IMG/VR virus record: IMGVR_UViG_3300049728_000165
Location: 1 to 25,326 of that record
Direction: 5' to 3' (one strand)
Length of the DNA stretch: 25,326 nt
DNA from: a virus
Below the pieces are notes generated by a model. That model saw only the letters and a program-made list of their open reading frames with translations, was not told the DNA's origin and made no database searches. The first letter of the stretch is position 1. Every line of letters begins with the position of its first letter. Below, piece after piece: positions 8,611 to 25,265 of this stretch. The position numbers and the translations under genes were made by a program.

Positions 8611-8650
8611 TGCCCTGGCCCGTGGCCGGGACTGGCGGCCCCCTGGACGG

Positions 8651-9235: not shown

Positions 9236-9246
9236 AGGGAAGCCCC

Positions 9247-10866: not shown

Positions 10867-10879
10867 AGGAAACACCTAT

Positions 10880-11640
10880 GGTCGTGGTTGAGATCGCTGG
10901 ACTCAGCAAGGATTTGGCAAATTGAAGTGGATTGTTATGCAAGAGTATCACCCTCGGTGAGTGAATCAATCAGGATGGCGACACATGCCGATGCCTCGCT
11001 GGGCCCTAACGCGTCCTTGTGCTGGACGTCCAGTCCCGACGCAAGGGCTAGAGCGGTGGTGACGGCTCGCCGCCTAGAGGACCGGGGAACGGGCTACCAG
11101 GGGCCTCTGCGCGACAGAGGGGGCTGAGTCCTTCGGACCGCTTGGAGACCCCGCCCAGGGCCGACGCGAGGTGCTCCGGGTCGCCTTGTGCTCGACGTCC
11201 AGGCCTGCCGCGATGGCGAGGGTGGCGGTGACGGGCTCGCCGCCCAGGGAGGCGGGCTGCGCGCGACCAGCCAGCCATCGCTCTGGCCCTCGCCCATGGC
11301 AGCGGCACAGGGGGCTGAGAGGCCCTGGATCGCTGGAGGCCATGCCCAGGGCCAGCGCGGCCGGCGGTTGAGCCTTCTCCTCACCCGCCAAGGCCCCGGC
11401 CCCGTGGCCGTGATCCGGTGCGCGGCGTAGGACAGCATGGACAAGCTCGCCGCATGTTCCCGATGGAAGCGAGCAGGGGGTGGGGGTGGTCATCGGGCGG
11501 CGCTGGGGGCATCCCCCAGGGCCAGCGCAAGGTGATCCGGGCCGCCCCCTGCTGGGCCACCTCGCCAAGACCCCCGACAGCCCAGCCTCGCGCCTGGATA
11601 TGGGTTCAAGTATGGGTTCAGAAAGGGCGTCTGGTATAAG
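10880..11640 (-). pseudogene. Scrap region with at least two Rha N-terminal remnants
   Basis: No intact gene. On the minus strand, about 11,250-11,164 reads PASLGGEPVTATLAIAAGLD and then VEHKATRS, clearly related to the Rha copies at 5462 and 6635 (which read VTTSPALASGLGVQPKN). A second remnant at about 11,075-10,990 reads, after a frameshift, VTTALALASGLDVQHKDALG. Both end after about 30 residues and are followed by unrelated GC-rich sequence. Long frames across this region on both strands are arginine- and proline-rich and look like shadows of decayed coding DNA. Confidence 0.5.
11599..11620. repeat. Tandem TATGGGTTCA direct repeats beside the tRNA 3' half
   Basis: TATGGGTTCA occurs perfectly at 11,599-11,608 and 11,611-11,620, spaced 12 bases apart, about 50 bases from the end of the split tRNA-Ser. 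The position and spacing are like integrase arm sites. They differ from the TTGTAACC arm sites of the right element, so they may belong to the integrase of the left element. Confidence 0.35.
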
Positions 11641-11671
11641 TTTCTTTATCTAAAGGGCTTGCTTATGTAAT

Positions 11672-11732
11672 TGGCGGAAGGTGAGGGATTCGAACCCCCG
11701 GTGAGCGTGAGCCCACGCTAGTTTTCAAGACT
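11672..11732 (-). pseudogene. 3' half of a host tRNA-Ser(UGA), separated from its 5' half
   Basis: On the minus strand from 11,732 the sequence reads the anticodon loop CTTGAAA, the stem half ACTAG, a long variable arm, the T-arm with GGTTCGAATCC, acceptor half ACCTTCC, discriminator G and CCA. The 5' half is missing here and lies 13.5 kb away at 25,304-25,266. Acceptor (GGAAGGT/ACCTTCC) and anticodon (CTAGT/ACTAG) stems pair without mismatch between the two halves, so they were one gene. Confidence 0.9.
11723..11732. other. Attachment-site core, left end of the element
   Basis: TTTCAAGACT (AGTCTTGAAA on the tRNA strand) covers the anticodon loop and the adjacent stem bases. It is identical to the core at 25,266-25,275 and also to the anticodon-loop region (11,878-11,887, plus strand) of the intact tRNA carried by the element. 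Strand exchange within these 10 bases would excise 13,543 bp and restore the host tRNA gene. Confidence 0.85.
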
Positions 11733-11780
11733 GTTGTGTCTGTGCCTTAACCTCAATATTCACAGCGTCGGATCGGGATT

Positions 11781-11800
11781 TTGTAACCCATTTGTAACCC
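11781..11800. other. Integrase arm-type sites, left end
   Basis: TTGTAACCC occurs at 11,781-11,789 and 11,792-11,800 in direct orientation, 11 bases apart, about 50 bases inside the core. The same word recurs inside the right end (25,127-25,182). Repeats shared by both ends and flanking the core are the hallmark of arm-binding sites for the N-terminal domain of tyrosine integrases. Confidence 0.65.
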
Positions 11801-11848
11801 GAGACCAAAATGGACGCAGGCAGGGCGCTCGTGGCATCATTTGGGAAC

Positions 11849-11936
11849 GGAAGGGTGGCCGAGTGGTCGATGGCAGGAGTCTTGAAAACTCCCGAGGTGC
11901 AAGCCTCCGTGGGTTCGAATCCCACCTCTTCCGCCA
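11849..11936 (+). tRNA. Intact tRNA-Ser(UGA) carried by the element
   Basis: This complete 88-base gene includes an encoded CCA. The acceptor is GGAAGGG/CTCTTCC with one G-T pair, the D-arm is GGCCGAGTGG, the anticodon stem is GGAGT/ACTCC around loop CTTGAAA (anticodon TGA), the class II variable arm is CGAGGTGCAAGCCTCCG, and the T-arm contains GGGTTCGAATCCC. It differs from the split host tRNA in stem sequences but has the same anticodon and loop. It lies inside the element, opposite in direction to the host gene, with its 3' end 7 bp from the integrase stop. It probably supplies the tRNA-Ser lost by integration. UGA-anticodon tRNA-Ser is generally needed to read UCA. Confidence 0.95.
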
Positions 11937-11943
11937 ATCACGT

Positions 11944-13242
11944 TCAGTAGCTGGCCCCCAGGGCTGCGCTGAGCATCGCACCCGACACCAGAGAGGCTTG
12001 GTCATCTGCCCGCTTCAGGACGTGGGCATAGATGGTCATGGTGATGACCGGTGTGCTGTGCCCCAGGCGCTGGGCTACCACATGCGGCTGAACACCCCCC
12101 TGCAGGAGCTGGGTGGCGTGGGTGTGCCGCAGGCTATGGAAATGCACATCAGGGAGCCCGGCCATCGTGGCGGCCCTGCTGAAGGCTTTGGTGATAGCGT
12201 CCGGGTTCTCCGGTCGGGTGAAGTCGACATCATGGATTTCGACATTGAGCGGCTGGCGCCCGCGGGCCCGGCGGATGGTGCAGGGGAAAACCAACCCGTC
12301 GACCGGGCACAATACGCCCAGGCTGGCCGCGAGGTCTTCGTGATACTGCCGGTGGGCCTTGAGGGTGCGGCACAGCCCATCGTCGATGACGATGGTGCGC
12401 CGGCTGCTCTCGTTTTTCGGGGGCTTGATCCTCAACCCGAATTTCAAGGTGCGCTCAAGCGCCTTGCTGATGCACAGGGTTTTCTTTTCGAAGTCCACGT
12501 CTGACCACCGGAGGGCCAGCAGTTCGCCCCTGCGGGCCCCGGTGCCTACCGCCACCACGGCCAGTGTGAAGAAATACTTTCCCCGAATGGCCTTGAGCAA
12601 GGTCGCGAGTTCGTCCTGCTCAAGCGCCTTGATCTGGCCTGAGTCTTCCGGGTCATCGCTCACGGCCCGCACCCGCTTGGGGTTCGGCGCCGTCACATCC
12701 TCAGCCGGGTTGCGGAGGATCACCTTTTGACGGGCTGCAGCCTTCAGGCAGGAAAACAGGGCCTGGTGGATGTGGAGGACCGTCTGAGCGGAAAGACCGG
12801 GCCGCGCATGGGGCGCATCCTCCGGGCCCTTCGTGCCGCCCATGGGGAGCCGTCCCGCGGTGAGCATGTCAGACAGGAACTTCTGGATGGTCGGGGCCGT
12901 CAGCTTCTGGATAAGGACAGAGCCAATTTTCGGGGCAACATGAGTTTCCAGGTAGCCCTTGTAACCCTCATAGGTGCGCTGGCTGACACTGGGCGCGGCG
13001 TGGTCCCGCAGCCAAGTCTGGATCCAATCGGCTAGCGTCATCTTCGACGGGTCCACGGCCGTGCCGGTGTCCACTTCGCCCATGAGGCGGCGCAGCTCCG
13101 CCTGGGCCTCCTTCTTGGTGCCGGTGCAGGTCTTGTACCTCTGCACCCGGGCGCCGGTCGCGGGGTCGCGCTCGGCATCATACTTGAGCAGGTAGGAAAC
13201 GCCCCGCTTGCCTTCGCGCTTGATGATCGACCCTCTGCTCAT
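11944..13242 (-). CDS. int: Tyrosine site-specific integrase
   Basis: This 432-aa phage-type tyrosine recombinase would integrate the element into and excise it from tRNA-Ser. An N-terminal arm-binding domain (about 1-58, with GKRGVSYLLKYDAERD) is followed by the SAM-like core-binding domain (about 65-175) and the catalytic domain (about 205-415). All catalytic residues are visible: R237 in TGARRGE, K276, H369 and R372 in HSLRH, H395 in LGHS, and nucleophile Y405 in TIYAHV. Length is normal for the family. ATG 13,242 overlaps the stop of the upstream zinc-finger gene as ATGA, so the two are co-expressed. The stop lies 7 bp from the carried tRNA-Ser and about 210 bp from the attachment core, as expected for an int-attP pair. 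Confidence 0.95.
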   Translation of the reverse strand: MSRGSIIKREGKRGVSYLLKYDAERDPATGARVQRYKTCTGTKKEAQAELRRLMGEVDTGTAVDPSKMTLADWIQTWLRDHAAPSVSQRTYEGYKGYLETHVAPKIGSVLIQKLTAPTIQKFLSDMLTAGRLPMGGTKGPEDAPHARPGLSAQTVLHIHQALFSCLKAAARQKVILRNPAEDVTAPNPKRVRAVSDDPEDSGQIKALEQDELATLLKAIRGKYFFTLAVVAVGTGARRGELLALRWSDVDFEKKTLCISKALERTLKFGLRIKPPKNESSRRTIVIDDGLCRTLKAHRQYHEDLAASLGVLCPVDGLVFPCTIRRARGRQPLNVEIHDVDFTRPENPDAITKAFSRAATMAGLPDVHFHSLRHTHATQLLQGGVQPHVVAQRLGHSTPVITMTIYAHVLKRADDQASLVSGAMLSAALGASY

Positions 13243-14129
13243 TTCGAACCGCCTTTCTTGACTGGCTTGCGACGTTGCTGGGACTCGACATCTTTAAGGT
13301 GGGCTGCTTCACATTTCAAGCTGCAGTATTTACGAGGCTCCAACCCCTCTTGTCGGAGTTCGACCCACTTCTCATCACACCCAGGCCGTTCGCAGGATCT
13401 AGAGAACCTGCCCATGTCCATACCGTAATGATGGGCCGCCCTGCAGCGTGGATTGCAGTATTCCTTGCGTGAGGATTTCTGCCCATGGCCTTCGTACCAC
13501 TCGCCCGCACACGTCGGCAATTTGCATTTCTTGAGCAGGAGGTCCCCGGCGACTTCTTGGGCAAGGCGTAGCCACATCCAAGCTATCAAACTGCCCACCT
13601 TCGTCTTTAGAACGGTTCGGCCATTCTCTTTTTCCAAACATACAGACATGTGTTGAGGGCAAAAATTATTGAAGTGTGTATTGCGATCCGAGGGAAGTTT
13701 GCGATCCGACTGGGATAGGAGATGGGCGTCCTGCGACCAGTGGGCGTAAATCCAGAGATAGTCGTGCGCGAGCCATAGGTGGGCGAGGCTCTCCCTTTTT
13801 GGTGGTCCTCCACCGTCAAGGCCCAGGAGCCCGTATTCACTCACAAACGCAAGCAGGCCCTCATTATCGCCCGATTCCAGTTTCATAAATTCCCGGTGGG
13901 CCATCCTGTTCAATTCATCGGGGCAATACTCATCCATCGCATACTCGGCTCGATCTTCAGGGCCTGGGCCAAGTAGATAGGCAGAAGCGCTCAGCTGGTT
14001 CGCCGGCTGGGCCGCAACACTTGGCGGGTTCACCGGCCGGGCAACAATGGCGCCCCCCTGCAGGGTGTAACCCTGCCGGCACTTCTTCCAGCTCATGCGG
14101 GAGAACAAGGACCATTCCGTCATCGCCAT
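13239..14129 (-). CDS. Double zinc-finger protein co-expressed with integrase
   Basis: This 296-aa protein has an N-terminal half without recognised domains, helical and rich in W, H and Y. The C-terminal part holds two Cys-rich modules. The first reads CKLPTC and then YCNPRCRAAHHY, and the second CERPGC and then KYCSLKCEAAH. Each has a CxxxxC pair followed by a CxxxC pair, resembling CGNR-type or MYND-like zinc fingers with a basic patch after the last cysteine. The C-terminus is very basic (RRKPVKKGG). ATG 14,129 has GAGGG upstream. It sits just ahead of int in a two-gene minus-strand operon facing the excisionase-like gene across a 224-base control region. It could be a repressor controlling the switch, or a recombination directionality factor. 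Role inferred from position only. Confidence 0.7.
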   Translation of the reverse strand: MAMTEWSLFSRMSWKKCRQGYTLQGGAIVARPVNPPSVAAQPANQLSASAYLLGPGPEDRAEYAMDEYCPDELNRMAHREFMKLESGDNEGLLAFVSEYGLLGLDGGGPPKRESLAHLWLAHDYLWIYAHWSQDAHLLSQSDRKLPSDRNTHFNNFCPQHMSVCLEKENGRTVLKTKVGSLIAWMWLRLAQEVAGDLLLKKCKLPTCAGEWYEGHGQKSSRKEYCNPRCRAAHHYGMDMGRFSRSCERPGCDEKWVELRQEGLEPRKYCSLKCEAAHLKDVESQQRRKPVKKGGSK

Positions 14130-14151
14130 GCTGCCCTCTACTCAAAACAAA

Positions 14152-14276
14152 TACTGTTCAGTACAAGTGTCTACGCCCTAGTCCGTCATGTCAAGCGCTT
14201 ATTCGTTTAGCAACATAGGATATCCCTAGGCTCTTCTCTACCCAATTCTACGCATGACATAAGCCAGTAGGGTAGA
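14152..14276. promoter_or_regulatory. Divergent control region with a palindrome and TCTAC repeats
   Basis: This lies between the minus-strand zinc-finger/int operon and the plus-strand excisionase operon. TACTG-TT-CAGTA (14,152-14,163) is a perfect 5-bp palindrome near the zinc-finger gene start. TCTACCC at 14,237-14,243 pairs with GGGTAGA at 14,270-14,276, and TCTAC also occurs at 14,138, 14,170 and 14,248. These are candidate sites for the element's repressor or excisionase. No gene lies in 14,130-14,353. Confidence 0.45.
14189..14194 (-). promoter_or_regulatory. Possible -35 box for the zinc-finger/integrase operon
   Basis: The minus strand reads a perfect TTGACA here, 60 bases before the ATG at 14,129. 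At 17-base spacing the -10 position reads GACACT, a poor match, so it would need an activator. The palindrome at 14,152-14,163 would lie just downstream of the start of transcription, where a repressor could block it. Confidence 0.3.
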
Positions 14277-14353
14277 CGGCATCACCAGTCCGCCCGAAAA
14301 TAGGATCCAAGCAAGGGCGAACCGCCCGGGCCCCCTTAGCTGAAGGAGCTGAA

Positions 14354-14584
14354 ATGGCAGAACCCGAAGGACACTCAGGACCGGGGCAGAGCCCCAACCC
14401 GGGAATGGAACGTCTCACCCGGACGGTTGAGGAGGCCGCGGCCATCCTTGGTATCTCCCGGCCGAGCGCATACGAGGCAGTCAGGCGCGGCGAAATCCCC
14501 TCAGTTCGCATTGGGCGCCGCCTTCTTGTGCCCAACGCCGCCCTCGCCAAGATGCTGGCGGCCGCCGGCCAGGGTGCCCTGTGA
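14354..14584 (+). CDS. Excisionase/AlpA-like helix-turn-helix protein
   Basis: This 76-aa protein has a MerR-like excisionase HTH_17 domain at about residues 18-70. It opens LTRTVEEAAAILGISRPSAY, with the recognition helix EAVRRGEIPSVRIGRRLLV, the standard wording of this family, ending NAALAKML. Such proteins bend DNA at attachment sites to favour excision or activate early genes. ATG 14,354 follows GAAGGAG. Its stop overlaps the next start as GTGA, making it first gene of the right element's replication operon. It faces the integrase operon across the control region, the classic int-xis layout. It is the counterpart of the gene at 179 in the left element, though the two differ in sequence. 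Confidence 0.85.
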   Translation: MAEPEGHSGPGQSPNPGMERLTRTVEEAAAILGISRPSAYEAVRRGEIPSVRIGRRLLVPNAALAKMLAAAGQGAL

Positions 14585-15042
14585 AGGGAATGGCTTTCTT
14601 GGCACAGGCCGCGGTCGACCGGGAGATGGCTTTCCTTTCAATCGACCCGCAGGGGGTCCAGGGATTCCCCACGTACTACAAGCCCGGGTCGGGCTACCTG
14701 GCCCTGATCGGTGACGACCCGGATCCGGACCGAGATGCCAGCGTCGGCCCTGCCGGCTTCAGCGACCAAATCCTGAAGACCTACCTCGACGGCGCCCAGA
14801 CCTTCGTCATCAGCGCCGTCCTGGAGGAGGGGGCCGGGGCCATGCTCGCGACCACCGTCGCGACGTCGCCCGATCCCTTCGCCGCAATCGTGATTACCAA
14901 CCCCAGCCAGCACGCCGCCTGGACCCGGAAGATCATCGCACTGACCGGCAGGGGGCCCCGCTTCCACGTGGCGCCTGAGGGCTTCCTGGATGTCGGCGCG
15001 GAGGACGTCCTGTTCCTGAACCAGAGCAAGAGGTCACATTGA
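14581..15042 (+). CDS. Hypothetical protein between excisionase and primase
   Basis: This protein of up to 153 aa starts at GTG 14,581, overlapping the previous stop (GTGA). An ATG at 14,590 is an alternative. It contains alternating strands and helices without recognised motifs: an aspartate-rich loop DDPDPDRDAS near 46-55, hydrophobic strands TFVISAVLEE and FAAIVITN, and a tail reading EDVLFLNQSKRSH. It has no cysteines, no signal peptide and no membrane helix. It ends in TTGA overlap with the primase start, so translation is coupled in a three-gene operon. By position it may be a replication accessory or DNA-binding factor; not recognised. Confidence 0.65.
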   Translation: MKGMAFLAQAAVDREMAFLSIDPQGVQGFPTYYKPGSGYLALIGDDPDPDRDASVGPAGFSDQILKTYLDGAQTFVISAVLEEGAGAMLATTVATSPDPFAAIVITNPSQHAAWTRKIIALTGRGPRFHVAPEGFLDVGAEDVLFLNQSKRSH

Positions 15043-17555
15043 GCCAGTCAGCCCCCGCAATCACCCAGGCCCACGCCATCGAGGCGCCGGAGATGCTCCG
15101 GCCCCTGCGCGGGTGGCTGGTCTGGAAGTCTGAGCCCAACCCGAAGCGGCCGAAACCTCGCAAGGTTCCCTATTACCCTGAGACGGGCAAGCGAAGGCGG
15201 GGAAGGAACGGTACCCCAGAGGACCGGGCCCAGCTGGTCGACTTCGATACCGCGGTTGCCACCCTCCGGCGGGGCGGGTATGACGGCATCGGCTTCGCGC
15301 CCATGCCGGAATGGGGAATCGACGTCATCGACTTCGACGAGTGCATCAACAGTCACGTTGACCCTTTCATCGAACAGCTCGCGGCCGAGACCTATGTGGA
15401 GGTATCCCCCTCCGACCTAGGCGCCCACGCCTTCGTGCTGGGCGACATGCCGAACATGAAGGACCACGCCGCACCGGGTAAGTTCGGCGTCGAGGTCTTC
15501 CACGACTCCGGATTTGTCACCTTCACCGGCAAGGTGCTCCCCATCTGCCGGGTTCTCGACACCGACAACCTGGTGGGCCAGGCGGGCCCCGAGCTGGTCG
15601 CCCTGGTCGAGGCCCGGCGCCACAGCCGGGAGACCGATGGCAGCCCCGCGGAGCACTCCGAGGCGGCCAGCTTCACCCGGGCCATGGCCCTGAGGGAGGT
15701 TGATGCCGAAACCCTCGCCAGCCTGCGGGACGCCCTGCTGAGCGACTCGACCGCGGAGCTGGCCGAAGGATATGGATCCTGGGTCAACATTGGCCAGGCT
15801 CTCAAGAGTTTGGAGGAAACCTCCTTCGGATCCGAGGCACTGGACCTGTGGCATCTGTTCAGCGCACGCAGTGAGCAATACGACGGGGCGCAGGCGGAGG
15901 CCAAGTGGGACAGTTTCAGGCCCACCAAGATCACCTACAAGAGCATCTTCGACTTGGCACAGCGGAACGGGTGGACGAACCCCCGCAGCGCCCAGGGCAT
16001 GAAGGCGGGCGGCGCCGACGAATATGCCAAGCTGGAGGACCGCTCGGATATCGGGAACGCCAACTTGCTGATCAAGATCACGGGCGGCGATCTTCGCTAT
16101 GTGTGGGAGTGGAAGCGGTGGCTCTGGTGGGACGGATCCAGGTGGATTGATGACAAATCCGGCGCCGGCGCCCTGGCTGCGGCAAAGGGGATCGCCCAGC
16201 ACTATCACAAGAAGGCCGATGACCTGAAGCGCCAGGCCGCGGACGAGTCCCTGGTGGCGGCCGAGCGCAAGCGCATCAATACGGCGGCCGAGGGCGTCGA
16301 GAAGTGGGCGGTCCATTGCCGGAACAAGAAATCCATCGATGCGCTGCTGGCCATGGCATCTCGTGATAGCCGGGTCGTGGTGTCCGCGGCGGACCTCGAC
16401 CGCGACCCATTCCTGCTAGGCGTGGCGAATGGGACGATCGACCTGCGCACAGGCCAGCTGCGCGCCGCGGCCCGTGACGAGTTTGTCACGCAGCGCAGCC
16501 CCATCGCCTTCGACCGGGGCGCCGGTGCTCCACGTTTCCGCCGGTTCATTCAGGAGATCACTGGAAAGCCTCGACCGGTTGAATTCAATCACGCCACCGG
16601 GCGGCCAATTCCGGAATCGGTTATCGGCTATGTTCCCCGGCCAGCACTGGCGGATTACCTGCAGCGGGCCCTGGGCTATTGCCTCACCGGGTCGACAGCG
16701 GAACAAAAGGTGTTCATCGGTCACGGTGAGGGTTCGAACGGCAAAAGCGTGCTGTTCGACGTGGTGCAAGAGCTGGCTGGCGACTATTGCAGGACCGTCG
16801 AGCCCAAGTTCCTGATGTCCGGTGACTACCTCACCAACCCCGAGAGCCCGTCACCCGTGGCCGCGACCCTGGCGGGGGCCCGACTGGCCATTAGCTGCGA
16901 GAGCAAGGAAGGCCAGAAACTTGATATCGCCTTGATCAAGAGGCATTCCGGCGGTGGGTTTTTGACGGCCCGCGGGATGAACCAGAACACCTTCCGCTTT
17001 GCTATCACTCACAAATTGCTGTTGATGACGAATCACAAGCCAGAGCTTGAGCACTTGGATTTCGCCCTGCGCGGCCGGCTGCACCTTATCCCGTTCGATC
17101 GGAAGTGGAATCGCCCCGGAACTCCAGAGCGCGACGAATCCCTGCCGGACGGCGACCGGGATCTGATGACCGAGTTGCGGGCGGAGGCGCCTGGGATCCT
17201 GACATGGCTGATTGAAGGCGCCTCCCGATACGCCCAGGAAGGCCTGGAACCTCCCCAGGAAGTGGTGAACACCACCCGCGATTATCTGGCCGAGCAGGAT
17301 CCTGTTGGGAGGTGGCTGGAAAGCTTTGAACGCTGCGACCCCAGGCACGGGACTTCCGCCGCTGAGTTGTTCAAGCAGTTCATCACCTGGCATCGGGATG
17401 AGGACACCGGGAGCGGCGGGGCCCCTCACTCCGAAAAGGCTTTTGGTGTGGCCCTGCGCGAGCGCGGAGTGAGGAACCAAAAGAAGGAGACCGGGATGCA
17501 CTACGGGATAAAACCCTCAACCAAACCCCAAAACCTGACGGATGACGGATCATGA
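15039..17555 (+). CDS. NrS-1-type primase with PriCT-2 and P4/D5-type SF3 helicase
   Basis: This 838-aa replication protein is of the phage P4-like primase-helicase class. The N-terminal archaeo-eukaryotic primase (about 20-170) shows VIDFD with D98/D100, SPSDLGAH at 123-130, VEVF near 151-154 and FVTFTGK at 159-165, the wording of NrS-1-type primases rather than PF09250 Prim-Pol. A PriCT-2-like domain follows (about 217-310, with YGSWVNIGQALKSLE). The D5 N-terminal region (about 340-480) leads to the SF3 helicase: Walker A GHGEGSNGKS at 561-570 and a Walker B-like RLAISCE ending at E621, then LLLMTNHKPEL. Start is TTG 15,039, overlapping the upstream stop. The last 20 bases of the gene contain iterons of an inverted-repeat cluster (17,534-17,644), the likely origin. 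Confidence 0.9.
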   Translation: MSQSAPAITQAHAIEAPEMLRPLRGWLVWKSEPNPKRPKPRKVPYYPETGKRRRGRNGTPEDRAQLVDFDTAVATLRRGGYDGIGFAPMPEWGIDVIDFDECINSHVDPFIEQLAAETYVEVSPSDLGAHAFVLGDMPNMKDHAAPGKFGVEVFHDSGFVTFTGKVLPICRVLDTDNLVGQAGPELVALVEARRHSRETDGSPAEHSEAASFTRAMALREVDAETLASLRDALLSDSTAELAEGYGSWVNIGQALKSLEETSFGSEALDLWHLFSARSEQYDGAQAEAKWDSFRPTKITYKSIFDLAQRNGWTNPRSAQGMKAGGADEYAKLEDRSDIGNANLLIKITGGDLRYVWEWKRWLWWDGSRWIDDKSGAGALAAAKGIAQHYHKKADDLKRQAADESLVAAERKRINTAAEGVEKWAVHCRNKKSIDALLAMASRDSRVVVSAADLDRDPFLLGVANGTIDLRTGQLRAAARDEFVTQRSPIAFDRGAGAPRFRRFIQEITGKPRPVEFNHATGRPIPESVIGYVPRPALADYLQRALGYCLTGSTAEQKVFIGHGEGSNGKSVLFDVVQELAGDYCRTVEPKFLMSGDYLTNPESPSPVAATLAGARLAISCESKEGQKLDIALIKRHSGGGFLTARGMNQNTFRFAITHKLLLMTNHKPELEHLDFALRGRLHLIPFDRKWNRPGTPERDESLPDGDRDLMTELRAEAPGILTWLIEGASRYAQEGLEPPQEVVNTTRDYLAEQDPVGRWLESFERCDPRHGTSAAELFKQFITWHRDEDTGSGGAPHSEKAFGVALRERGVRNQKKETGMHYGIKPSTKPQNLTDDGS

Positions 17556-17644
17556 CGAACTTCGTGTGTTTTTCTCTACGCATTGAAAAAGTAGTCTCTA
17601 AGGAGAGACCTAGGGAAACCCGTCAGGATCCGTCATCCGTCAGG
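17534..17644. repeat. Putative replication origin of the right element: TGACGGA/TCCGTCA inverted repeats
   Basis: Two 23-base arms, 17,534-17,556 and 17,622-17,644, are inverted copies with one mismatch. Each contains two tandem heptamers: TGACGGA at 17,536 and 17,543 on the left, TCCGTCA at 17,629 and 17,636 on the right. The left arm overlaps the end of the primase gene. The 65-base spacer is AT-richer and holds a perfect 6-bp hairpin GTCTCT/AGAGAC (17,594-17,609). Position and form parallel the GGTCCA cluster of the left element. No gene is supported in 17,556-17,760. Confidence 0.7.
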
Positions 17645-17760
17645 ATTGCCCCCTGCGGGCCCTCCGGAAAGGCGCCCTGCTGGAAAGGCCGTGAGTGTCA
17701 CGCCACCACCGCTAAGGTTTCGGCCCCGCCACGGCCTTCCCCCTGCCCGGGAGGTGGCCG

Positions 17761-18312
17761 ATGAGCGCCGAGAAGCTGACCCCTAAGCAGACCGCCTTCG
17801 TGAAGAGCTATTGCCGGCTCGGCGGGATGAACGCGACCCAGGCCGCCATCGCCGCCGGCTATAGCGGCCACGGCAAGGGCGCCGGCGCCGCGGTATCCGC
17901 AAGCCGTATGCTGCAGCAGCCCCACATCCTGAACGCCATCCGCGAAGAGACAGAGCGCACTCTGCGCGCTGGCGTGGCCCTGGGCGCCCAGGTGCTCGAT
18001 GAGCTGGCAAGGGGCGCCGTAAGTGAATCGGTGCGCCTGCAGGCCGCCCAGGCCCTCCTGGATAGGGGTGGAATGCAGCTGGCCAACCTCAGCGAGCACC
18101 ACGTCATCGTCGAGGACAAGCGGACGGATGCCGAACTCAGGTGCCGGGTTGAGGAGCTGGCTCGCGAGCTGGGCCTGGCGGCCAAGGTCATTCCCGGCGA
18201 GCTGGTCGACCTTCCGACCCTCCAATCTGAGGGCCCTGGTTGCAAGGATGGTTACAAGTCCACTCCAAACAACCATTTTAATATTGATTCGAATGGACTT
18301 ATCGGCGAATAG
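17761..18312 (+). CDS. terS: Terminase small subunit
   Basis: This 183-aa protein is of the Terminase_2 (PF03592) type. The N-terminal 70 residues carry the DNA-recognition helix-turn-helix: LTPKQTAFVKSYCRLGG, then NATQAAIAAGYSG, and an ARRMLQQP-like motif (ASRMLQQPHILNAIRE). A central oligomerisation helix follows (about 70-105, GAQVLDELARGAVSESVRLQ), then QAAQALLDRGG and a C-terminal acidic helical region. Small terminase recognises the packaging site and loads DNA onto the large subunit. ATG 17,761 overlaps an upstream TGA-type context with GGGAGGTGG just before it. In phage satellites a private small subunit redirects a helper phage's packaging; here the large subunit is also present, at 20,365. 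The last 25 residues are lower in GC and may be a foreign tail. Confidence 0.85.
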   Translation: MSAEKLTPKQTAFVKSYCRLGGMNATQAAIAAGYSGHGKGAGAAVSASRMLQQPHILNAIREETERTLRAGVALGAQVLDELARGAVSESVRLQAAQALLDRGGMQLANLSEHHVIVEDKRTDAELRCRVEELARELGLAAKVIPGELVDLPTLQSEGPGCKDGYKSTPNNHFNIDSNGLIGE

Positions 18313-18375
18313 CAACGGTCTATCAGACCAAATCAATCTCCACCCACCCAAAACCCGCCCCGAAGGAGGCAAAAA

Positions 18376-19029
18376 ATGCTTAGTTCCCTAGCTTCAAAAC
18401 TGACCGGCAGCAACCCGGACAAGCTGGCTGAAACCATCCAGCGCCTGACCGCGGAGCGCGACGCCGCCAAGATCCGCCAGGATGTCGCGAGCCAAGCCTG
18501 GGGCGACGCTTTGGCCCTGCAGGCTGAGGGCGATGGTGATACGCCCGACACCGTCAAGCTGGAACGGGAGATGGATGCCGCATCCCAGGCCTTCCGCGCC
18601 AAGGATGCCGCGTTGACCGCAGCCAAGGCCCGCCACGGCGCCGCCGTGGTCCAGGCGAGCAGGGACAGCATGTCTGAGCAGTGGGGGAAGGCCGAAGCCC
18701 TGGCCGGCGCAAGGAGCGCGTCTGCGGTGCGTTTGGCGCAGTCCATCCGAGACTTCGCCGCCTGCCACGAAGACTTTCTGAAGGTAAATGCAGCCTTGAC
18801 CGGCGCCCTGCCCGAAGCGCCGGACCCGGACGCAGCTTTCCTCCGTGGCGCCCAAGTGGAGAACGCAATCAGAGCGGAGATGCAGCGCTTGGGTGTTGAC
18901 TGGGCATTCCATTGGCCCTGGGGGACCGTGAGTATCCCGTCGTTCACTCCCCAGTTCGAAGCCACGCCGGATCTCATCCGCCATTGGCGTGATAGCGCCA
19001 TGGCTCGGGCCACCGGCCAGAAGGCCTAA
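18376..19029 (+). CDS. Coiled-coil protein between terminase subunits
   Basis: This 217-aa protein has strong AAGGAGG eight bases before ATG 18,376. Residues about 12-110 are charged and helical with few breaks (LAETIQRLTAERDAAKIRQD) and likely coiled-coil. The C-terminal third contains a W-rich segment (RLGVDWAFHWPWGTVSI) and ends in a basic tail. It shows no homology I recognise. In tailed-phage modules a coiled-coil protein between terS and terL is sometimes a scaffold or head-assembly factor; that is possible here but not shown. It is followed after 3 bases by the next gene, so they are in one operon. Confidence 0.65.
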   Translation: MLSSLASKLTGSNPDKLAETIQRLTAERDAAKIRQDVASQAWGDALALQAEGDGDTPDTVKLEREMDAASQAFRAKDAALTAAKARHGAAVVQASRDSMSEQWGKAEALAGARSASAVRLAQSIRDFAACHEDFLKVNAALTGALPEAPDPDAAFLRGAQVENAIRAEMQRLGVDWAFHWPWGTVSIPSFTPQFEATPDLIRHWRDSAMARATGQKA

Positions 19030-19032
19030 GCC

Positions 19033-19686
19033 ATGACCGAATTCCTCGCCGCCCCTACCAATGCGCAGCCGGCCGCAGCGCCCCCGGCGCCTGAACCGTA
19101 CCAAATCCCCTTTCCCGGCCCATCACCCCAGATCGCAGCGCAGCCGGCAGCGCCTACGGTGCCTATGACGCGCCTCGCCGACTACCTCGGGGCGGCCGAG
19201 CCGGCGGCGCCGACCCTGGACCCCGCGGCAGCTGCCGAAGCAGCCATCCGGGCGGAGGAGGGGCGCCAGTCGGACATCCTGACTTTTTGCACACCCCCCG
19301 AGACGATCGCTGGATACCAGTTCCAGCCTCCACCTCCGGGCGTTGAAACCTCGATCGAGCAGGAAGTCGCCATGCGCACCCTCTTCCGGGAATCCGGCAT
19401 CCCCAGTCACGTCGGCAGTGAAGCGAATCGACTTTGGAACCAGGCCATTCTGAATCCGCCATCCGAGATCGACCGGACCCTGCAAGGGAAGGCCAACAGG
19501 GTTGCGCTTGAACAGGCCTGGGGCCCGGACTTTGAGCGGAACCTGGCGGCCGCGCAGAGCGTAGTGGCTCAAATGGCCAAGACCCGCCCAGAGGTCATCA
19601 ACATGCTTGAGCAGTCTGGGCTCGGGAACAATGTCTACATCATCAGGAGTCTTTACAACCTGGCCAGGGCCCGGGGTGCCAAGTGA
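19033..19686 (+). CDS. Scaffold-like virion assembly protein (tentative)
   Basis: This 217-aa protein has a low-complexity proline- and alanine-rich N-terminus (about 10-75, with PAAAPPAPEP) and a helical C-terminus. The C-terminus reads AMRTLFRESGIPSHVG near 113-128, then LEQAWGPDFERNLAAAQSV, and EVINMLEQSGLGNNVYIIRS near the end. From memory, this WG-x-DF and LE-x-xGLGN wording is similar to the C-terminal part of phage capsid scaffolding proteins, where the helical end binds coat protein. No signal or membrane segment. The start follows the preceding gene's stop by three bases and the end overlaps the next by GTGA. If it is a scaffold, the missing coat protein would have to come from elsewhere. 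Moderate to low certainty. Confidence 0.5.
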   Translation: MTEFLAAPTNAQPAAAPPAPEPYQIPFPGPSPQIAAQPAAPTVPMTRLADYLGAAEPAAPTLDPAAAAEAAIRAEEGRQSDILTFCTPPETIAGYQFQPPPPGVETSIEQEVAMRTLFRESGIPSHVGSEANRLWNQAILNPPSEIDRTLQGKANRVALEQAWGPDFERNLAAAQSVVAQMAKTRPEVINMLEQSGLGNNVYIIRSLYNLARARGAK

Positions 19687-19931
19687 CCGCCCCCAGCGCC
19701 GCCCTGTTGCTTGGCCTGGTGAACGACAAACCCCAGGCGCCCGCTCCCGCACCCGTGGCCGTCCCTGCGCCTGCGCCAGCTCCCGCCCGGAGCCACCGGC
19801 CGCGCTACCGGCGCAACAGACACAAGCGCAGGCCCCAGCCCGATGCCTTTGACCGGGAACCGGACGGCCAGGACGCTAGGTCGACCTTCGGGCCCGGTGA
19901 ACTGATCAAGACCTTGAAGATTCATCTGTGA
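19683..19931 (+). CDS. Small basic protein with proline-alanine repeat
   Basis: This 82-aa protein starts at GTG 19,683 within the GTGA overlap. The N-terminal 40 residues include a PAPAP-type low-complexity run, followed by a strongly basic patch (RSHRPRYRRNRHKRRP) and an acidic/polar end reading FGPGELIKTLKIHL. The basic patch could bind nucleic acid or an acidic partner. The gene ends in another GTGA overlap with the next, so the run of genes from 19,033 to 20,362 is translationally coupled. No family recognised; composition bias makes the functional call impossible. Confidence 0.5.
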   Translation: MTAPSAALLLGLVNDKPQAPAPAPVAVPAPAPAPARSHRPRYRRNRHKRRPQPDAFDREPDGQDARSTFGPGELIKTLKIHL

Positions 19932-20362
19932 CGCCGGGAGATCCCATGGCCAATGGCCTGACCACCAGACAACGCGGCCAAGGGGAGGGCGTCATGACCG
20001 CCCCCGCCTTCGGTCACGCCGCCAGGCTCCTCGGCTTCGACATGGCGCCCAGCACCCCGCAGCCCGAAACCGGCTCGGAGGGGGTTTATGCGCCCGCGGA
20101 TACTTCAAACAAGATGTACTCTCCGCACACCCGCGACATGGAGGGCACCGCGGCTGCGCCCACTCCCGGCTCGGCCAAGGTCCCTGCCGCCTTTGGCCAC
20201 GACCCGGAGGGGGCCCCAGACCCGAATCGCCAGATTGAGGGGGGCACCCCGGATTCTGGGCCCGGGCACATCACCCGTGGGGGCGACTCTCGCGATTGCA
20301 AGGCTCCAGAGGTCGACGTCCAAAAAATTCCGGTTGGTCCTAAAAATTCGGAAAGGGGTTAG
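19928..20362 (+). CDS. Glycine/proline-rich hypothetical protein upstream of terL
   Basis: This protein of up to 144 aa starts at GTG 19,928 (GTGA overlap). Internal ATGs at 19,946 and 19,994 are alternative starts. It is disordered in composition, rich in G, P, D and T (EGTAAAPTPGSAKVP; DPEGAPDPNRQIEGG), with no clear domain. It contains several charged, hydrophilic stretches and no cysteine cluster or membrane helix. It ends two bases before the large terminase ATG. It could be a poorly folded connector or a regulator. Low information; the operon position is the main support for its being real. Confidence 0.45.
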   Translation: MTPGDPMANGLTTRQRGQGEGVMTAPAFGHAARLLGFDMAPSTPQPETGSEGVYAPADTSNKMYSPHTRDMEGTAAAPTPGSAKVPAAFGHDPEGAPDPNRQIEGGTPDSGPGHITRGGDSRDCKAPEVDVQKIPVGPKNSERG

Positions 20363-20364
20363 AA

Positions 20365-21900
20365 ATGGCTGAATCCAAGCTGGCCGAACTTGCACAGCAC
20401 CTTGAAGAGCTGAAGCGCAGGCAGGAAGAGAACCGCCTCGACTACTACACCGCATACCCGAAGCAGCTCGAATTCCACGAAATGGGCGCATCCAAGCGCG
20501 AGCGCATGTTCATGGCCGGTAACCAGTTGGGTAAGACCTGGTCGGGTGGCATGGAAATGGCCATGCACCTGACCGGCAGATACCCCGACTGGTGGCAGGG
20601 GCGCCGATTCGCGGGCCCCATCCGCGCCTGGGCTGCCGGTGTCACAGGCGAATCGACCCGGGACAACCCGCAGCGCATCCTCCTGGGCACTCTTGGCCGG
20701 CAGGGCACAGGATCGATCCCCAAGGATGCCATCGTCGAGGTGCGAACCGGCCGCGGCCTGCCGGACGCCCTCGATAACATCCTGGTGATGCACAAGTCAG
20801 GGGGCATCAGCCAGGTTGCCTTCAAATCCTATGAGCGCGGCCGGGAGAAGTGGCAGGGTGAAACCCTCGACGTCGTGTGGATGGATGAAGAACCGCCCAT
20901 CGATATCTATTCGGAGGCCCTGGCGCGCATCGCGGCCAAGGGTGGGCTGGTCTACCTGACGGCAACGCCCCTGCTCGGCATGTCGGCAGTGGTGCGCCGG
21001 TTCCTGAATGAACCGACCGCAGACCGCGCCTACATCCAGATGACGATAAGCGACGCCCTGCACATCAGCCCGCAGGACCGCGCGCGCATCATCGAAGGCT
21101 ATCCACTACACGAGCGGGAGGCCCGGACGTTGGGTATCCCGATGCTGGGATCCGGCCGGGTGTTCCCGGTGGCAGATGAGAAGGTCGCTGAAGAGGCCTT
21201 CGCAATCCCGAAGCACTGGCCCCGGATCTGCGGGATCGATTTTGGCTGGGATCACCCGACCGCGGCCGCCTGGCTCGCCTGGGATCGTGACACGGATATC
21301 GTTCACGTTTACGACGTCTACCGGGTGCGGGAGGAAACGGCGGTCATCCACGCCGCAGCCATCAAGGCCCGGGGCGATTGGATCCCTGTCGCCTGGCCCC
21401 ATGACGGCCTGCAGACCGAGAAGAGCGGAGGTGAGACGCTGGCCGCCCAGTATCGCAAGCTGGGCCTGAGGATGCTCGGCGCCCAGGCCCGCTTCGAGGA
21501 TGGCGGCAACAGCGTCGAGGCCGGCGTCATGGATATGCTCAACCGGATGCAGACCGGGCGCCTGCGGGTGGCTGCGCACCTGGGCGAATGGTTCGACGAA
21601 TTCAGGATGTATCACCGGAAGGATGGGCGCCTGGTCAAGGAACACGACGACGTGCTGAGCGCGACCCGATACGCCCTGATGATGCTGAAGAGCGCGCGGA
21701 CCCGGCCGGACTACTCCCAGAGCAGGAGCTTCATCGCGGAAGGCGTCGACGACCCGCTGAACTTAGGCGGGCCCGCACAGGGGCGCCCTGCCGGCACTGG
21801 CGTCGTCTGGGGCAATGAGCGCCCTGCTCATCTGGACAGGCACAACCGCGCAAGGCGCGACGGCTCGGAGCCGAACTCCGATTATTCAATTTTCTCTTAA
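20365..21900 (+). CDS. terL: Terminase large subunit (ATPase and nuclease)
   Basis: This 511-aa packaging motor is intact. The ATPase domain (about 45-215) has the Walker A-like AGNQLGKT at 51-58 (K57), Walker B DVVWMDEE at 169-176 (D174, E175) and the coupling motif LTATP at 198-202. The RNase H-type nuclease (about 288-445) has the three expected acids: D292 in GIDFGWDHP, D347 in AWPHDG, and D428/D429 in HDDVLSATRY. The wording is closest to terminases of podovirus and lambdoid type; the group cannot be fixed without alignment. ATG 20,365 has GAAAGGGG nearby. It is preceded by terS at 17,761. No portal gene follows, which is the normal next gene in a tailed phage. Confidence 0.92.
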   Translation: MAESKLAELAQHLEELKRRQEENRLDYYTAYPKQLEFHEMGASKRERMFMAGNQLGKTWSGGMEMAMHLTGRYPDWWQGRRFAGPIRAWAAGVTGESTRDNPQRILLGTLGRQGTGSIPKDAIVEVRTGRGLPDALDNILVMHKSGGISQVAFKSYERGREKWQGETLDVVWMDEEPPIDIYSEALARIAAKGGLVYLTATPLLGMSAVVRRFLNEPTADRAYIQMTISDALHISPQDRARIIEGYPLHEREARTLGIPMLGSGRVFPVADEKVAEEAFAIPKHWPRICGIDFGWDHPTAAAWLAWDRDTDIVHVYDVYRVREETAVIHAAAIKARGDWIPVAWPHDGLQTEKSGGETLAAQYRKLGLRMLGAQARFEDGGNSVEAGVMDMLNRMQTGRLRVAAHLGEWFDEFRMYHRKDGRLVKEHDDVLSATRYALMMLKSARTRPDYSQSRSFIAEGVDDPLNLGGPAQGRPAGTGVVWGNERPAHLDRHNRARRDGSEPNSDYSIFS

Positions 21901-21910
21901 GGGGGCCATC

Positions 21911-22294
21911 GTGGCCGTCACCGAAAAAACCTTCCTCCTGGCCGGCACCGAAGCCCCGGTCGGCAGCACGCCTGAGATCCGCGAAGCGCTGGCGGCGGGC
22001 ACCGCAATTATCCGCGAAGTCACAGCCGGCGATGCCGTCGAGGTGCCGGCCGGATTGTTTCAGCTGAACTTGGTTGCGCCGGCGGACTGCGAAATCCACC
22101 TTCAGCGTTTCCAGGATGGTCGCTGGCTCAACGTCATTGGGCGCCTGCCTGAACCTCCTGAACACGGTGATCCGCGGGGCCCCCGGGCCTTTCGGCCGGA
22201 GCCGGTCCGTCTCCCGGCCTGCTCAGTGCGCCTGGATGCTCCGGGCATCCTCAGCCCCGGTGGCTTCATCGCAACCCTCGTCCTGATCGGGTAA
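21911..22294 (+). CDS. Small beta-rich protein, paralogue of the 22,532 gene
   Basis: This 127-aa protein starts at GTG 21,911, ten bases after the terL stop, with AAGGGGG ahead of it. The frame is open 96 bases upstream inside terL, but that start has no ribosome site. It is mostly short beta strands and turns (FLLAGTEAPVGST; VPAGLFQLNLVAP). The C-terminal wording VRLDAPGILSPGG and TLVLIG resembles the end of the gene at 22,532 (VRMAATGGAPSG, SLIGLG), so the two are probably related. Small beta-sandwich proteins after terL in phages are often decoration or spike proteins; here that is inference. It lies in a co-directional run of three small genes. Confidence 0.55.
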   Translation: MAVTEKTFLLAGTEAPVGSTPEIREALAAGTAIIREVTAGDAVEVPAGLFQLNLVAPADCEIHLQRFQDGRWLNVIGRLPEPPEHGDPRGPRAFRPEPVRLPACSVRLDAPGILSPGGFIATLVLIG

Positions 22295-22342
22295 TCCCTT
22301 CATCCAACCCAGGCGCCCGGCGCCACATCCAAGGAGTTTCAA

Positions 22343-22531
22343 GTGGCCAATTACTTTTACGGCATCAACAAAGGGCAGAACGAATACCAGGCCGTGGTCG
22401 GCACCTCCACCAATAGCGTGGACATCGAGCTGAACGTCAACGGCACCAACGTCACCACCAAGCAGGACATCGTCAACGCACTCAAAAAGCTGAAGAACTA
22501 CATCCTGCGCCTCCCGTTCACCCCCCTGTAG
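22343..22531 (+). CDS. Small hypothetical protein
   Basis: This 62-aa protein starts at GTG 22,343 with AAGGAG ten bases upstream. It begins MANYFYGINKGQNEYQAVVG and continues with a beta-strand segment, VDIELNVNG, and a helix that reads QDIVNALKKLKNYIL. Strand-strand-helix is the likely fold. No family assigned. In many phages small proteins with an opening like ANYFYGIN-x-G lie next to head and decoration genes, but the resemblance is from memory and weak. It is followed directly by the next gene at 22,532 without a gap, consistent with one operon. Confidence 0.6.
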   Translation: MANYFYGINKGQNEYQAVVGTSTNSVDIELNVNGTNVTTKQDIVNALKKLKNYILRLPFTPL

Positions 22532-22861
22532 GTGTCGGCCATGCCCGCAAATCGTTGTGACCCTCTCGCGTACAACCTCGGAACCAACCTCTCGGCGACC
22601 GGCGCCTCGGTGATGATCCCTGGTGGCGAGTACATGTTCTGGGCCGAGGGTACGCCCGTGGGCGCGACCGTCAGTCTGCAGATGCAGGCGGCGTTTACCG
22701 GAACCTGGATCGACGTTCAGGTGTTCAATGGCTCGCCTGTCAAATCGGCCACGCTGCCGTTTAGCCAGACCGGCATCGAGCTGCCCGCCGGCAATGTGCG
22801 CATGGCTGCGACGGGCGGGGCGCCGTCTGGCCTGAATGCTTCCTTGATCGGGCTCGGGTAG
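22532..22861 (+). CDS. Small beta-rich protein, paralogue of the 21,911 gene
   Basis: This 109-aa protein is annotated from GTG 22,532 (ATG 22,541 is possible). It has a beta-sandwich-like pattern of alternating strands: VMIPGGEYMFWAEG, VSLQMQAAF, GTWIDVQVF, and the end VRMAATGGAPSG with SLIGLG. The arrangement (strand, W/Q-rich strand, strand, AGNVRM, SLIG) parallels the gene at 21,911 and suggests duplication. It has no cysteine. A strong terminator follows 20 bases after its stop, closing the terminase operon. Possible virion decoration protein; this is inference. Confidence 0.6.
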   Translation: MSAMPANRCDPLAYNLGTNLSATGASVMIPGGEYMFWAEGTPVGATVSLQMQAAFTGTWIDVQVFNGSPVKSATLPFSQTGIELPAGNVRMAATGGAPSGLNASLIGLG

Positions 22862-22881
22862 GATCGACGGCCAGAACGCGG

Positions 22882-22918
22882 GCCCGGTGGTCTTGGGGGG
22901 ATCCCCAGGCCGCCGGGC
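22882..22918 (+). terminator. Rho-independent terminator closing the terminase operon
   Basis: GCCCGGTGGTCTTGGGG (22,882-22,898) pairs with CCCCAGGCCGCCGGGC (22,903-22,918), with two G-T pairs and one bulged T, around a four-base loop. A short T-rich stretch (TCTTTC) follows. The long GC stem just after the last gene of a co-directional run supports a terminator. The AT-rich cargo region begins right after it. Confidence 0.7.
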
Positions 22919-22998
22919 TCTTTCATGGAAACTTACAATGGCTTCCATGGTAAAAATATGATCGGTTCCTTTCCTCGAGACCTGATAGAGGGGTGTTT

Positions 22999-23349
22999 AT
23001 GGAAATCACAAGTGTTAATATCGGCGGTCAGACACTCGCGGATCAACGAAGGCTTTTGATTAAGGATGAGACCACGGCAGTAATTGAAATTGATGGATCA
23101 TTCCTGATTTATTTGATTTTTCACCCTGGCCCTAATCCGAATCAACCTGGGACACGCCTTTCTTGGACGCCATATGAAAGGGGGTTGAAGTTTGACGCAT
23201 ATGGATGGAATAACACACTTGGCGAATCTTTGACTGATCCAATCTCATTGGGCAAAGATAGCGAAACCCAGAAAGAAATTATGGTAATGATATCCAGTCG
23301 ACGACTGGGTAATTTTAACGATTGCAATATTGATTTATATATAGGGTGA
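22999..23349 (+). CDS. DUF6864-like protein, AT-rich cargo
   Basis: This 116-aa protein starts at ATG 22,999 with GAGGGG eight bases upstream. It begins MEITSVNIGG and continues with beta strands and a hydrophobic stretch (FLIYLIFHPG), then a segment reading FDAYGWNNTLGESLTDPISL, and ends in MVMISSRRLGNFND and a short strand. The wording (MEITSV, N-x-LG, PI-x-LG) resembles the DUF6864 family as I remember it, whose function is unknown to me. The gene is clearly more AT-rich than the terminase operon and is followed 3 bases later by a two-TM protein, so the two are a likely unit. Could be a small effector or immunity system. Family call is moderate; operon link is clear. Confidence 0.55.
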   Translation: MEITSVNIGGQTLADQRRLLIKDETTAVIEIDGSFLIYLIFHPGPNPNQPGTRLSWTPYERGLKFDAYGWNNTLGESLTDPISLGKDSETQKEIMVMISSRRLGNFNDCNIDLYIG

Positions 23350-23352
23350 CCC

Positions 23353-23643
23353 ATGCCAATCACTCCTAATATTAAATCTGGAAGCGAGTCGACAAGTTTT
23401 AAACTAAGTCTTTTCCCTGGAAAGGCAGAAAAGACGAATTTCACTGCCGCGGAACTTCAACACAACCTTGCTAGGTATGTAATATCGTGGCTGGGAGCTT
23501 TGGCGTGCTTGATTTTAGTCACCATGACTATCGCCTTCTATTTGGAAGAAAAGAAATTTCAAATTATTGTCCCTGGCCTATTGAGTGCAATTAGTGGAGT
23601 TATAGGTTATATTGCGGGCCACACATCAAGAAGCAACAAATAA
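23353..23643 (+). CDS. Two-TM membrane protein, partner of the 22,999 gene
   Basis: This 96-aa protein starts at ATG 23,353, three bases after the upstream stop. Residues 1-45 are hydrophilic with a helix before the membrane; the two hydrophobic helices are YVISWLGALACLILVTMTIA (about 42-61) and IIVPGLLSAISGVIGYIAG (about 71-89), with a short charged loop between them. The C-terminus ends SRSNK. Both termini are probably on the same side, likely cytoplasmic by the positive-inside rule. Small two-TM proteins beside a soluble protein are common in defence systems as pore-forming effectors. That reading is a guess from size and layout. AT-rich like its partner. Confidence 0.6.
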   Translation: MPITPNIKSGSESTSFKLSLFPGKAEKTNFTAAELQHNLARYVISWLGALACLILVTMTIAFYLEEKKFQIIVPGLLSAISGVIGYIAGHTSRSNK

Positions 23644-23668
23644 CATCACTAAGCAATACGAGGCTCCC

Positions 23669-23851
23669 ATGCCTACCTGCCGATGTTGCGACGCAAGCCA
23701 GCCACCCCAGGCCCCAAAGGTGTGCCCTGAGTGCGGCCGTGTCTTCCAAGGGCACGGTTGGGACGGCGTTGATGCTCACTGGAGGGCAAAACACGAGCAC
23801 TTGATGCCATATAAGGAATTCTGGGCAGGGCTGTGTTCTGACCACAGTTGA
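23669..23851 (+). CDS. Zinc-finger-like 60-aa protein
   Basis: This 60-aa protein starts at ATG 23,669. It begins MPTCRCCDASQ and continues CPECGRVFQGHGWDGVDAHW, followed by H-x-x-H (KHEHLMPYKEFW). The C-x-x-C, C-x-C-C and the late histidines fit a C2H2-like or zinc-ribbon fold, with a DGVDAHWRAKHEH segment like a classical finger. ACGAGG is present about seven bases upstream. It may bind nucleic acid. It stands 25 bases after the membrane-protein stop and before a 300-base gap, so it could be part of the same cargo operon. The frame is open a little upstream, but the first ATG with a ribosome site was chosen. Confidence 0.6.
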   Translation: MPTCRCCDASQPPQAPKVCPECGRVFQGHGWDGVDAHWRAKHEHLMPYKEFWAGLCSDHS

Positions 23852-23974
23852 GGGGGGACGTCGTAAGCCCTCCGTCCGGGGGAACTGGGGCGCCAACCGG
23901 GACAAGGCGCCTGCCCTGCAGGAGGAAGGTGAGCCGGCGCTCTGTGCGCCATCGCGTGCGACTCCGACCACCTT

Positions 23975-24094
23975 ATGGCCGCCGTGCTGGATCCGTTCGA
24001 CGGCGTGCCCCTGACCGGCCTGCCACAGGAGGCGCAGGATGTGCCCCTGGCCCACCTCCCGGCCGACGTGCCTACCGACCGGAGTAAGCCCTGA
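23975..24094 (+). CDS. Doubtful 39-aa acidic peptide
   Basis: The 269 bases of 23,852-24,120 have no clear gene. One frame from ATG 23,975 gives 39 residues with natural composition (AAVLDPFDGVPLTGLPQEAQ, then DVPLAHLPADVP) ending at TGA 24,094. Its upstream extension reads CAIACDSDHL. There is no ribosome site before the ATG. A GGAGGAA precedes a GTG in another frame, but that frame is arginine-rich and looks like a shadow. It may be the tail of a truncated gene. Confidence 0.2.
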   Translation: MAAVLDPFDGVPLTGLPQEAQDVPLAHLPADVPTDRSKP

Positions 24095-24165
24095 ACGCAG
24101 CCCTCCCTGCAGGGTGAGGAGTGGTTAGACTCGGTGATAACCTAACCAGACACCCAGGAACATCT

Positions 24166-24822: not shown

Positions 24823-24872
24823 CCACTATCTCGTTGGTCATACCACCATTATCTTAAGCCCAAGGAGACACC

Positions 24873-25094: not shown

Positions 25095-25126
25095 GGGAGC
25101 CTTCCGGCCCTGCCCCTGCCCGGTTC

Positions 25127-25182: not shown

Positions 25183-25214
25183 AGCCCCGGCCCAATCAGC
25201 CTAAACCCCTGAAA

Positions 25215-25251: not shown

Positions 25252-25265
25252 CGATATGCTCTGGA

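Follow-up and report, generated by a model that had tools for sequence, protein, structure and literature searches.

A candidate phage satellite that encodes both terminase subunits and no recognised portal or coat protein

Gene content and borders of the element

The virus record IMGVR_UViG_3300049728_000165 (positions 1 to 25,326; this whole 25.3-kb stretch is called the window) carries an integrated element that spans 11,723-25,275, with 13.54 kb between its attachment (att) cores. The element encodes its own small and large terminase subunits (TerS and TerL) and no portal or coat protein that we could recognise. We consider it likely that it is a phage satellite which brings its own packaging motor, with a TerL tail matched to a helper portal, and which would be packaged into the heads of podoviruses of the L096 type. 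The original prediction had given the size correctly as 13.5 kb, whereas its extent, 11,944-22,861, is corrected here to 11,723-25,275. The gene order is tRNA-Ser, integrase, AlpA-like regulator, P4-type primase, TerS, three to four small genes, TerL, three small genes and cargo of low GC content at third codon positions (GC3):

11,723-11,732, plus strand: left att core TTTCAAGACT, an exact 10-bp repeat of 25,266-25,275, at the end of the 3' half of the host tRNA-Ser gene
11,849-11,936, plus strand: the element's own intact tRNA-Ser(TGA), found with ARAGORN
11,944-13,242, minus strand: tyrosine integrase (PF00589, 2.6e-23)
13,239-14,129, minus strand: conserved protein with no family match
14,354-14,584, plus strand: AlpA/excisionase-like helix-turn-helix regulator (PF12728, 7.7e-14)
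14,581-15,042, plus strand: conserved protein
15,039-17,555, plus strand: P4-type primase-helicase (PF08706, 8.6e-27; PF08707, 7.7e-15)
17,761-18,312, plus strand: TerS (PF03592, E=2.8e-13)
18,376-19,029, plus strand: helical coiled-coil-like protein g18376
19,033-19,686, plus strand: capsid scaffold homologue g19033, lacking the C-terminal part of the phage proteins (phrog_3742, 8e-8)
19,683-19,931, plus strand: low-complexity open reading frame (ORF), uncertain gene
19,928-20,362, plus strand: low-complexity ORF, uncertain gene, its last ~170 bp being near-invariant in DNA alignment
20,365-21,900, plus strand: chimeric TerL (PF03237, E=5.6e-31; PF17289, E=2.9e-24), with a helper-like C-terminal tail at ~21,715-21,897
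21,911-22,294, plus strand: small protein g21911
22,343-22,531, plus strand: 62-aa phage virion-module protein g22343
22,532-22,861, plus strand: small all-beta, decoration-like virion-module protein g22532 (106 aa)
22,993-25,094, plus strand: low-GC3 cargo genes (GC3 0.39-0.47 for the main ORFs of 22,993-24,822)
24,121-24,822, plus strand: within the cargo, a DUF2971 candidate defence protein (PF11185, 5.6e-7; PADLOC PDC-S31, 6e-27)
25,266-25,275, plus strand: right att core, the second exact copy of TTTCAAGACT, at the start of the 5' half of the host tRNA-Ser gene

Both halves of the host tRNA-Ser gene lie on the minus strand, the 3' half at ~11,674-11,732 and the 5' half from 25,266 to ~25,311. 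When the flanks are joined without the element, ARAGORN recovers a complete tRNA-Ser(TGA), with the split point in the anticodon loop. The element's own tRNA-Ser(TGA) is a replacement for the host gene that it splits.

The originally predicted presence of a TerS and an intact TerL of the element's own was borne out by strong family matches and by the presence of all ATPase and nuclease motifs: a Walker A motif (AGNQLGKT), a Walker B motif (DVVWMDEE) and the RNase-H acidic residues in GIDFGWD, WPHDG and HDD. As a TerL of the Terminase_6 type, the protein gave no match to PF03354. The TerL body (residues 1-450) is nearest to phage TerLs, at 50-61% identity. Scanning genome contigs with TerL returned distant relatives only (49-61%) and not the element itself, and a search with the primase alone gave no viral relatives.

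For portal and coat, we searched the record over its full length in all six frames with PF12236, PF19821, PF04860 and PF05065, two families each for portal and capsid, and obtained no match; the same searches recovered the portal (PF12236, 1.7e-107) and the capsid protein (PF19821, 4.3e-75) of the candidate helper. Between 17.7 and 22.9 kb, leaving aside TerL and ORFs opposite coding genes, the longest ORF has 217 aa and is shorter than portals and HK97-fold coat proteins usually are. This agrees with the earlier statement that no portal or coat is recognised there. Two outcomes that would have spoken against the originally predicted satellite with a borrowed shell did not turn up: no portal or capsid came to light among the small genes, and there was no sign of a deletion derivative of a larger prophage.

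Relatives, selection and virion-module genes

Parts of the element recur in two contigs from two other metagenomes, L001 and L002, which keep the order g18376, scaffold homologue, TerL and g22532, with TerS also present in L001. TerL is 99% identical between the window and these contigs, g18376 is 77% conserved in them, and the ORF at 19,683 is 79% identical in L002. A second, diverged element, G001, is complete, with 19.2 kb between its att sites and host DNA on both sides. Its layout runs from the host flank and a tRNA-Ser half to its own tRNA-Ser(TGA), an integrase, an AlpA-like gene, a primase, TerS and TerL. Identities to the window are 62% for the integrase, 56% for the primase, 73% for TerS and 82% for TerL, and 40% and 32% for the conserved proteins at 13,239 and 14,581, respectively. 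The search for the same gene order elsewhere, as proposed at the outset, was thus answered by L001 and L002 around TerL and by G001 for the core. The same four-family searches gave no portal or coat for G001; a portal match within its 683-aa protein (11.6 bits) was below the cut-off and dismissed. A fragment of the G001 element recurs in another metagenome (L118). Comparisons of the left region by tblastx yielded mostly composition noise and were set aside.

At both insertion sites, reconstruction of the empty site restores the tRNA gene. A full replacement tRNA-Ser(UGA) is present in both satellites (window 11,849-11,936; L103:1662-1749 for G001), each of which splits a tRNA-Ser(UGA) gene. 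Directly after TerL, G001 encodes proteins of 683 and 1,447 aa that are related (36-37%) to 685- and 1,215-aa proteins of the L096-type podoviruses; the 683-aa protein is also 47% identical to proteins of L110 and L111. In the L096-type podoviruses these genes close the structural block, and from this position we infer that the two G001 proteins are internal or ejection proteins. There are at least two satellite lineages.

The ratio of non-synonymous to synonymous substitutions (dN/dS) is 0.04-0.09 for TerL (0.04 against L001 and L002), 0.07-0.15 for TerS, 0.18-0.23 for the scaffold homologue, 0.18 for the primase and 0.26 for the integrase. Judged by these ratios, all five genes are under purifying selection, which is strong for TerL. 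Terminase genes in a bacterial chromosome under strong purifying selection could also be expected of a domesticated packaging element, i.e. a locus resembling a gene-transfer agent that serves the host. We hold this to be very improbable: the element brings along an integrase and a tRNA of its own, exact att cores, a primase and variable cargo, two different insertions in diverged hosts are seen, and structural genes for a particle are missing.

Silent divergence (dS) between 17,761 and 22,861 of the window and L001/L002 is uneven, with values of ~0.2-0.3 in TerS and TerL and of 0.4-1.1 in the genes between them, which suggests that TerS and TerL cassettes recombine among satellites. Immediately 5' of TerL, ~170 bp (~20,190-20,364) are nearly identical at the DNA level in the window, L001 and L002, exceeding the conservation of the flanking genes. 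A short part of this block, containing GCGATTGCA, is shared with G001. The near-invariant DNA is possibly a cis-acting packaging or regulatory site.

A search with g22532 led to the podoviruses L096-L102, which carry a copy of it (84% identity in L096) beside a copy of g22343 (69%), located between the coat/decoration genes and the tail-tube gene. The AlphaFold2 (AF2) model of g22532 is a beta sandwich with a predicted local distance difference test score (pLDDT) of 73, and its best PDB match, a weak one (E=0.02), is the cement jellyroll of BPP-1 (3j4u_H). The scaffold-like protein of the original prediction was confirmed as a scaffold homologue at 19,033-19,686; phrog_3742 is also the PHROG of the L096 scaffold (4e-42). 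Against a hidden Markov model (HMM) built from phage scaffolds only, g19033 scored 37.5 bits (best of 2,000 shuffles, 6.5) over HMM positions 112-229 of 295. As the match ends at position 229, the C-terminal part is missing. In other phages, the scaffold C-terminus binds the coat protein. An earlier HMM that included satellite sequences gave a circular E-value and was replaced by the phage-only model. No match to the scaffold was obtained by tblastn against annotated phages.

For g18376 we found no family match, and its AF2 model, mostly helical with a pLDDT of 58, was too poor for a fold assignment. The protein g21911 gave only a weak profile match to g22532 (hhalign probability 6%, E=0.006) and was not found in L001 or L002; it is possibly a diverged copy of g22532. 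The earlier suspicion that the unrecognised genes hide structural proteins thus held for the genes at 22,343 and 22,532, which belong to a virion module, and did not hold for a portal or coat.

The TerL tail, a candidate helper and the neighbouring element

The L096-type podoviruses have a Head-tail_con portal (3.5e-105), a Phage_capsid_2 coat (4.5e-73) and a scaffold, and their TerL is of the Terminase_3 type, a type other than that of the satellite TerL. Residues 452-511 of the satellite TerL nevertheless align over their full length with the C-terminus of the L096 TerL, at 45% identity (pairwise E=5e-10). The local score of this alignment is 120, as compared to a maximum of 57 in 2,000 shuffles, whereas the satellite TerL body scores only 33 against the L096 TerL, a pairwise similarity that is not significant. 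This tail was not seen in ~90 other TerL relatives (best score 34), the relatives of the body ending in short unrelated tails, and a tblastn search with the tail against annotated phages gave no match. On these alignments, the satellite TerL is a chimera whose body and tail resemble different phage lineages.

The chimera bears on whether the element is simply a decaying prophage or deletion derivative that has lost portal, coat and tail. Such a remnant would account for the phage virion-module genes (scaffold, 62-aa and 106-aa proteins) and the phage-type TerL. We rate it as improbable, however, since the core without portal and coat recurs in G001 at 57-82% identity, dN/dS is 0.04-0.26 across TerL, TerS, scaffold homologue, primase and integrase, the two parts of TerL are akin to different phage lineages, and the order of integrase, AlpA-like gene and primase is satellite-like.

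In phage lambda the C-terminus of TerL touches the portal, and removal of the last five residues makes the terminase defective in binding proheads (PMC4856287); PMC2366019 cites a T3 gp19 study that addresses the same question. By analogy, the simplest reading of the satellite tail is that it would fit the motor to the portal of the helper, with the L096-type podoviruses as candidate shell donors. Upon helper infection or induction, the element would excise by means of its own integrase and replicate with its own primase. TerS would then select or mark the satellite DNA, and TerL, docked on the helper portal by its C-terminal tail, would pump this DNA into helper procapsids, which helper tails would complete to particles. 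The shortened scaffold homologue, together with the head-surface proteins that the element has captured, may bias or stabilise helper head assembly.

A TerL with such a tail might instead mainly sabotage or divert helper packaging, for example as a portal competitor, while the helper motor packages the satellite DNA. The tail would indeed occupy the helper portal, and interference with helper packaging is common among satellites (PMC10690885). Yet all ATPase and nuclease motifs are kept at a dN/dS of 0.04-0.09, beyond what a decoy needs, and the element's own TerS accompanies TerL, so that we regard sabotage as the main role as unlikely to be correct. The originally predicted satellite with a whole motor and a borrowed shell is supported by the G001 core, by purifying selection on TerL and by the chimeric TerL, and its use of a helper is what these features would imply.

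Several points weigh against packaging into L096-type heads by the satellite's own motor. The G001 TerL tail is only weakly similar to the L096 tail (score 49, reached by 4 of 2,000 shuffles), and the scaffold homologue is absent from G001, so that it is not general and is found in the lineage of the smaller element only. Docking of the tail on the portal rests on analogy, and packaging is deduced from genes, no packaged DNA having been observed. Finally, the data consist of contigs, and a helper prophage within the same cell was not seen; the co-occurrence of satellite and L096-type phages is limited to contigs from neighbouring IMG sample numbers. In size, the window element (13.5 kb) and G001 (19.2 kb) amount to ~1/3 and ~1/2 of the ~42-kb related phage contigs G008 and G009, ratios compatible with multimers in full-size heads or with one copy per small head, this being arithmetic and not packaging evidence.

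As a separate observation, a C-terminal [DE][YF]xxF-like motif occurs in TerLs of different types that adjoin Head-tail_con portals (L052-L082, L096, L102, L113 and L115). Among the TerL relatives it is present in six of nine distinct tails with such a portal vs. none of 26 without, in counts where the sequences are non-independent and the rule was picked after the data had been seen; a link between motif and portal type is suggestive.

To the left of the element, positions 1-11,674 of the window look like a second integrative element, which stops where the split tRNA-Ser gene has its 3' end and whose opposite end lies beyond the contig. The region contains an AlpA-like ORF (by eye), a Prim-Pol/DUF5906 primase ~53% identical to L096-type phage primases, and candidate defence genes of the DUF6932-like (PDC-M63A) and DUF2971 types. 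Several degenerate antirepressor-like gene copies (BRO/Rha-type, by eye) lie in both orientations at 5,289-9,967 and are ~70-90% alike over short stretches. The two neighbouring elements each encode a different DUF2971 protein (PADLOC PDC-S31; 10,120-10,875 and 24,121-24,822). In addition, a two-gene module of a DUF6932 nucleotidyltransferase-like protein and a partner (partner similarity by eye) is found both in G001 (L103:17,758-19,310) and at 6,852-8,485 of the window, and is a candidate defence or toxin-antitoxin cargo.

Comparison with known systems

The mode of integration of the window element and G001, with a short core in a tRNA gene, a junction at which the tRNA is not restored and a tRNA of matching isotype on the element itself, is the one defined as tRNA-dependent lysogeny in mycobacteriophages (PMC10865867). 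Those are complete temperate phages, whereas here it is used by a satellite, in the general sense of an integrating element (with att borders) that lacks the full virion gene set (no portal or coat).

Staphylococcus aureus pathogenicity islands (SaPIs) and other TerS-carrying phage-inducible chromosomal islands (PICIs) are likewise integrated, have an integrase and a replication gene, and use their own TerS to redirect packaging (PMC10690885); the combination of integrase, regulator and replication gene is found in our element as well. They differ in that they take TerL from the helper, whereas the element has its own, intact and chimeric TerL. SaPIs supply TerS, proteobacterial PICIs supply Rpp, and P4 uses the helper terminase (PMC10690885). 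Capsid-forming PICIs (cf-PICIs) and the Streptomyces satellites of the Mulch/Flayer group, MulchRoom and MiniFlayer, share both terminase subunits with the element, but encode them together with their own portal and major capsid protein (PMC10690885), of which the element has none.

Like P4-like satellites, the element combines integration at a tRNA gene, an integrase, an AlpA-like regulator, a P4-type primase and capsid-related extras. P4 itself uses the helper terminase and Sid (PMC10690885), in contrast to the own TerS and TerL seen here, and no family of the Psu/Sid capsid genes was found among the scanned element proteins. AH14b of Pseudomonas sp. ANT_H14 (16.8 kb) also has an integrase, an AlpA-like gene and a primase, and is packed in helper capsids as apparent multimers; in the part of that report accessible to us, a terminase is described for its helper AH14a only (PMC4936722). 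Phage-inducible chromosomal minimalist islands (PICMIs) are without packaging redirection genes (PMC10803314). Virion-encapsidated integrative mobile elements (VEIMEs) and tycheposons, integrative elements packaged in marine phage particles, are named in PMC10803314 and PMC11389934, respectively.

A described satellite with TerS and TerL but without portal and coat was not found in a partial search of the literature, with VEIMEs and tycheposons outside the comparison, so that the novelty of a motor-only satellite is provisional. On balance, we lean towards a new satellite class, a claim resting on two lineages, that brings a whole motor of its own for a foreign shell. A helper-matched tail on a TerL body that differs from the helper's would let it use any helper with the fitting portal and bypass the helper terminase, and sub-lineages would add helper-derived modules (scaffold and decoration, or ejection proteins). 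Rules for satellite detection would then have to be widened, as elements with a TerL and no capsid genes may so far have been discarded as broken prophages, and the element allows a direct test of whether the C-terminal tail of TerL alone sets portal specificity. In the literature covered here, satellites either redirect the helper motor (through TerS, Rpp, cos or pac) or supply both motor and shell; a motor-only satellite, if true, would mean that motor and shell are separable in evolution, given a matched docking tail.

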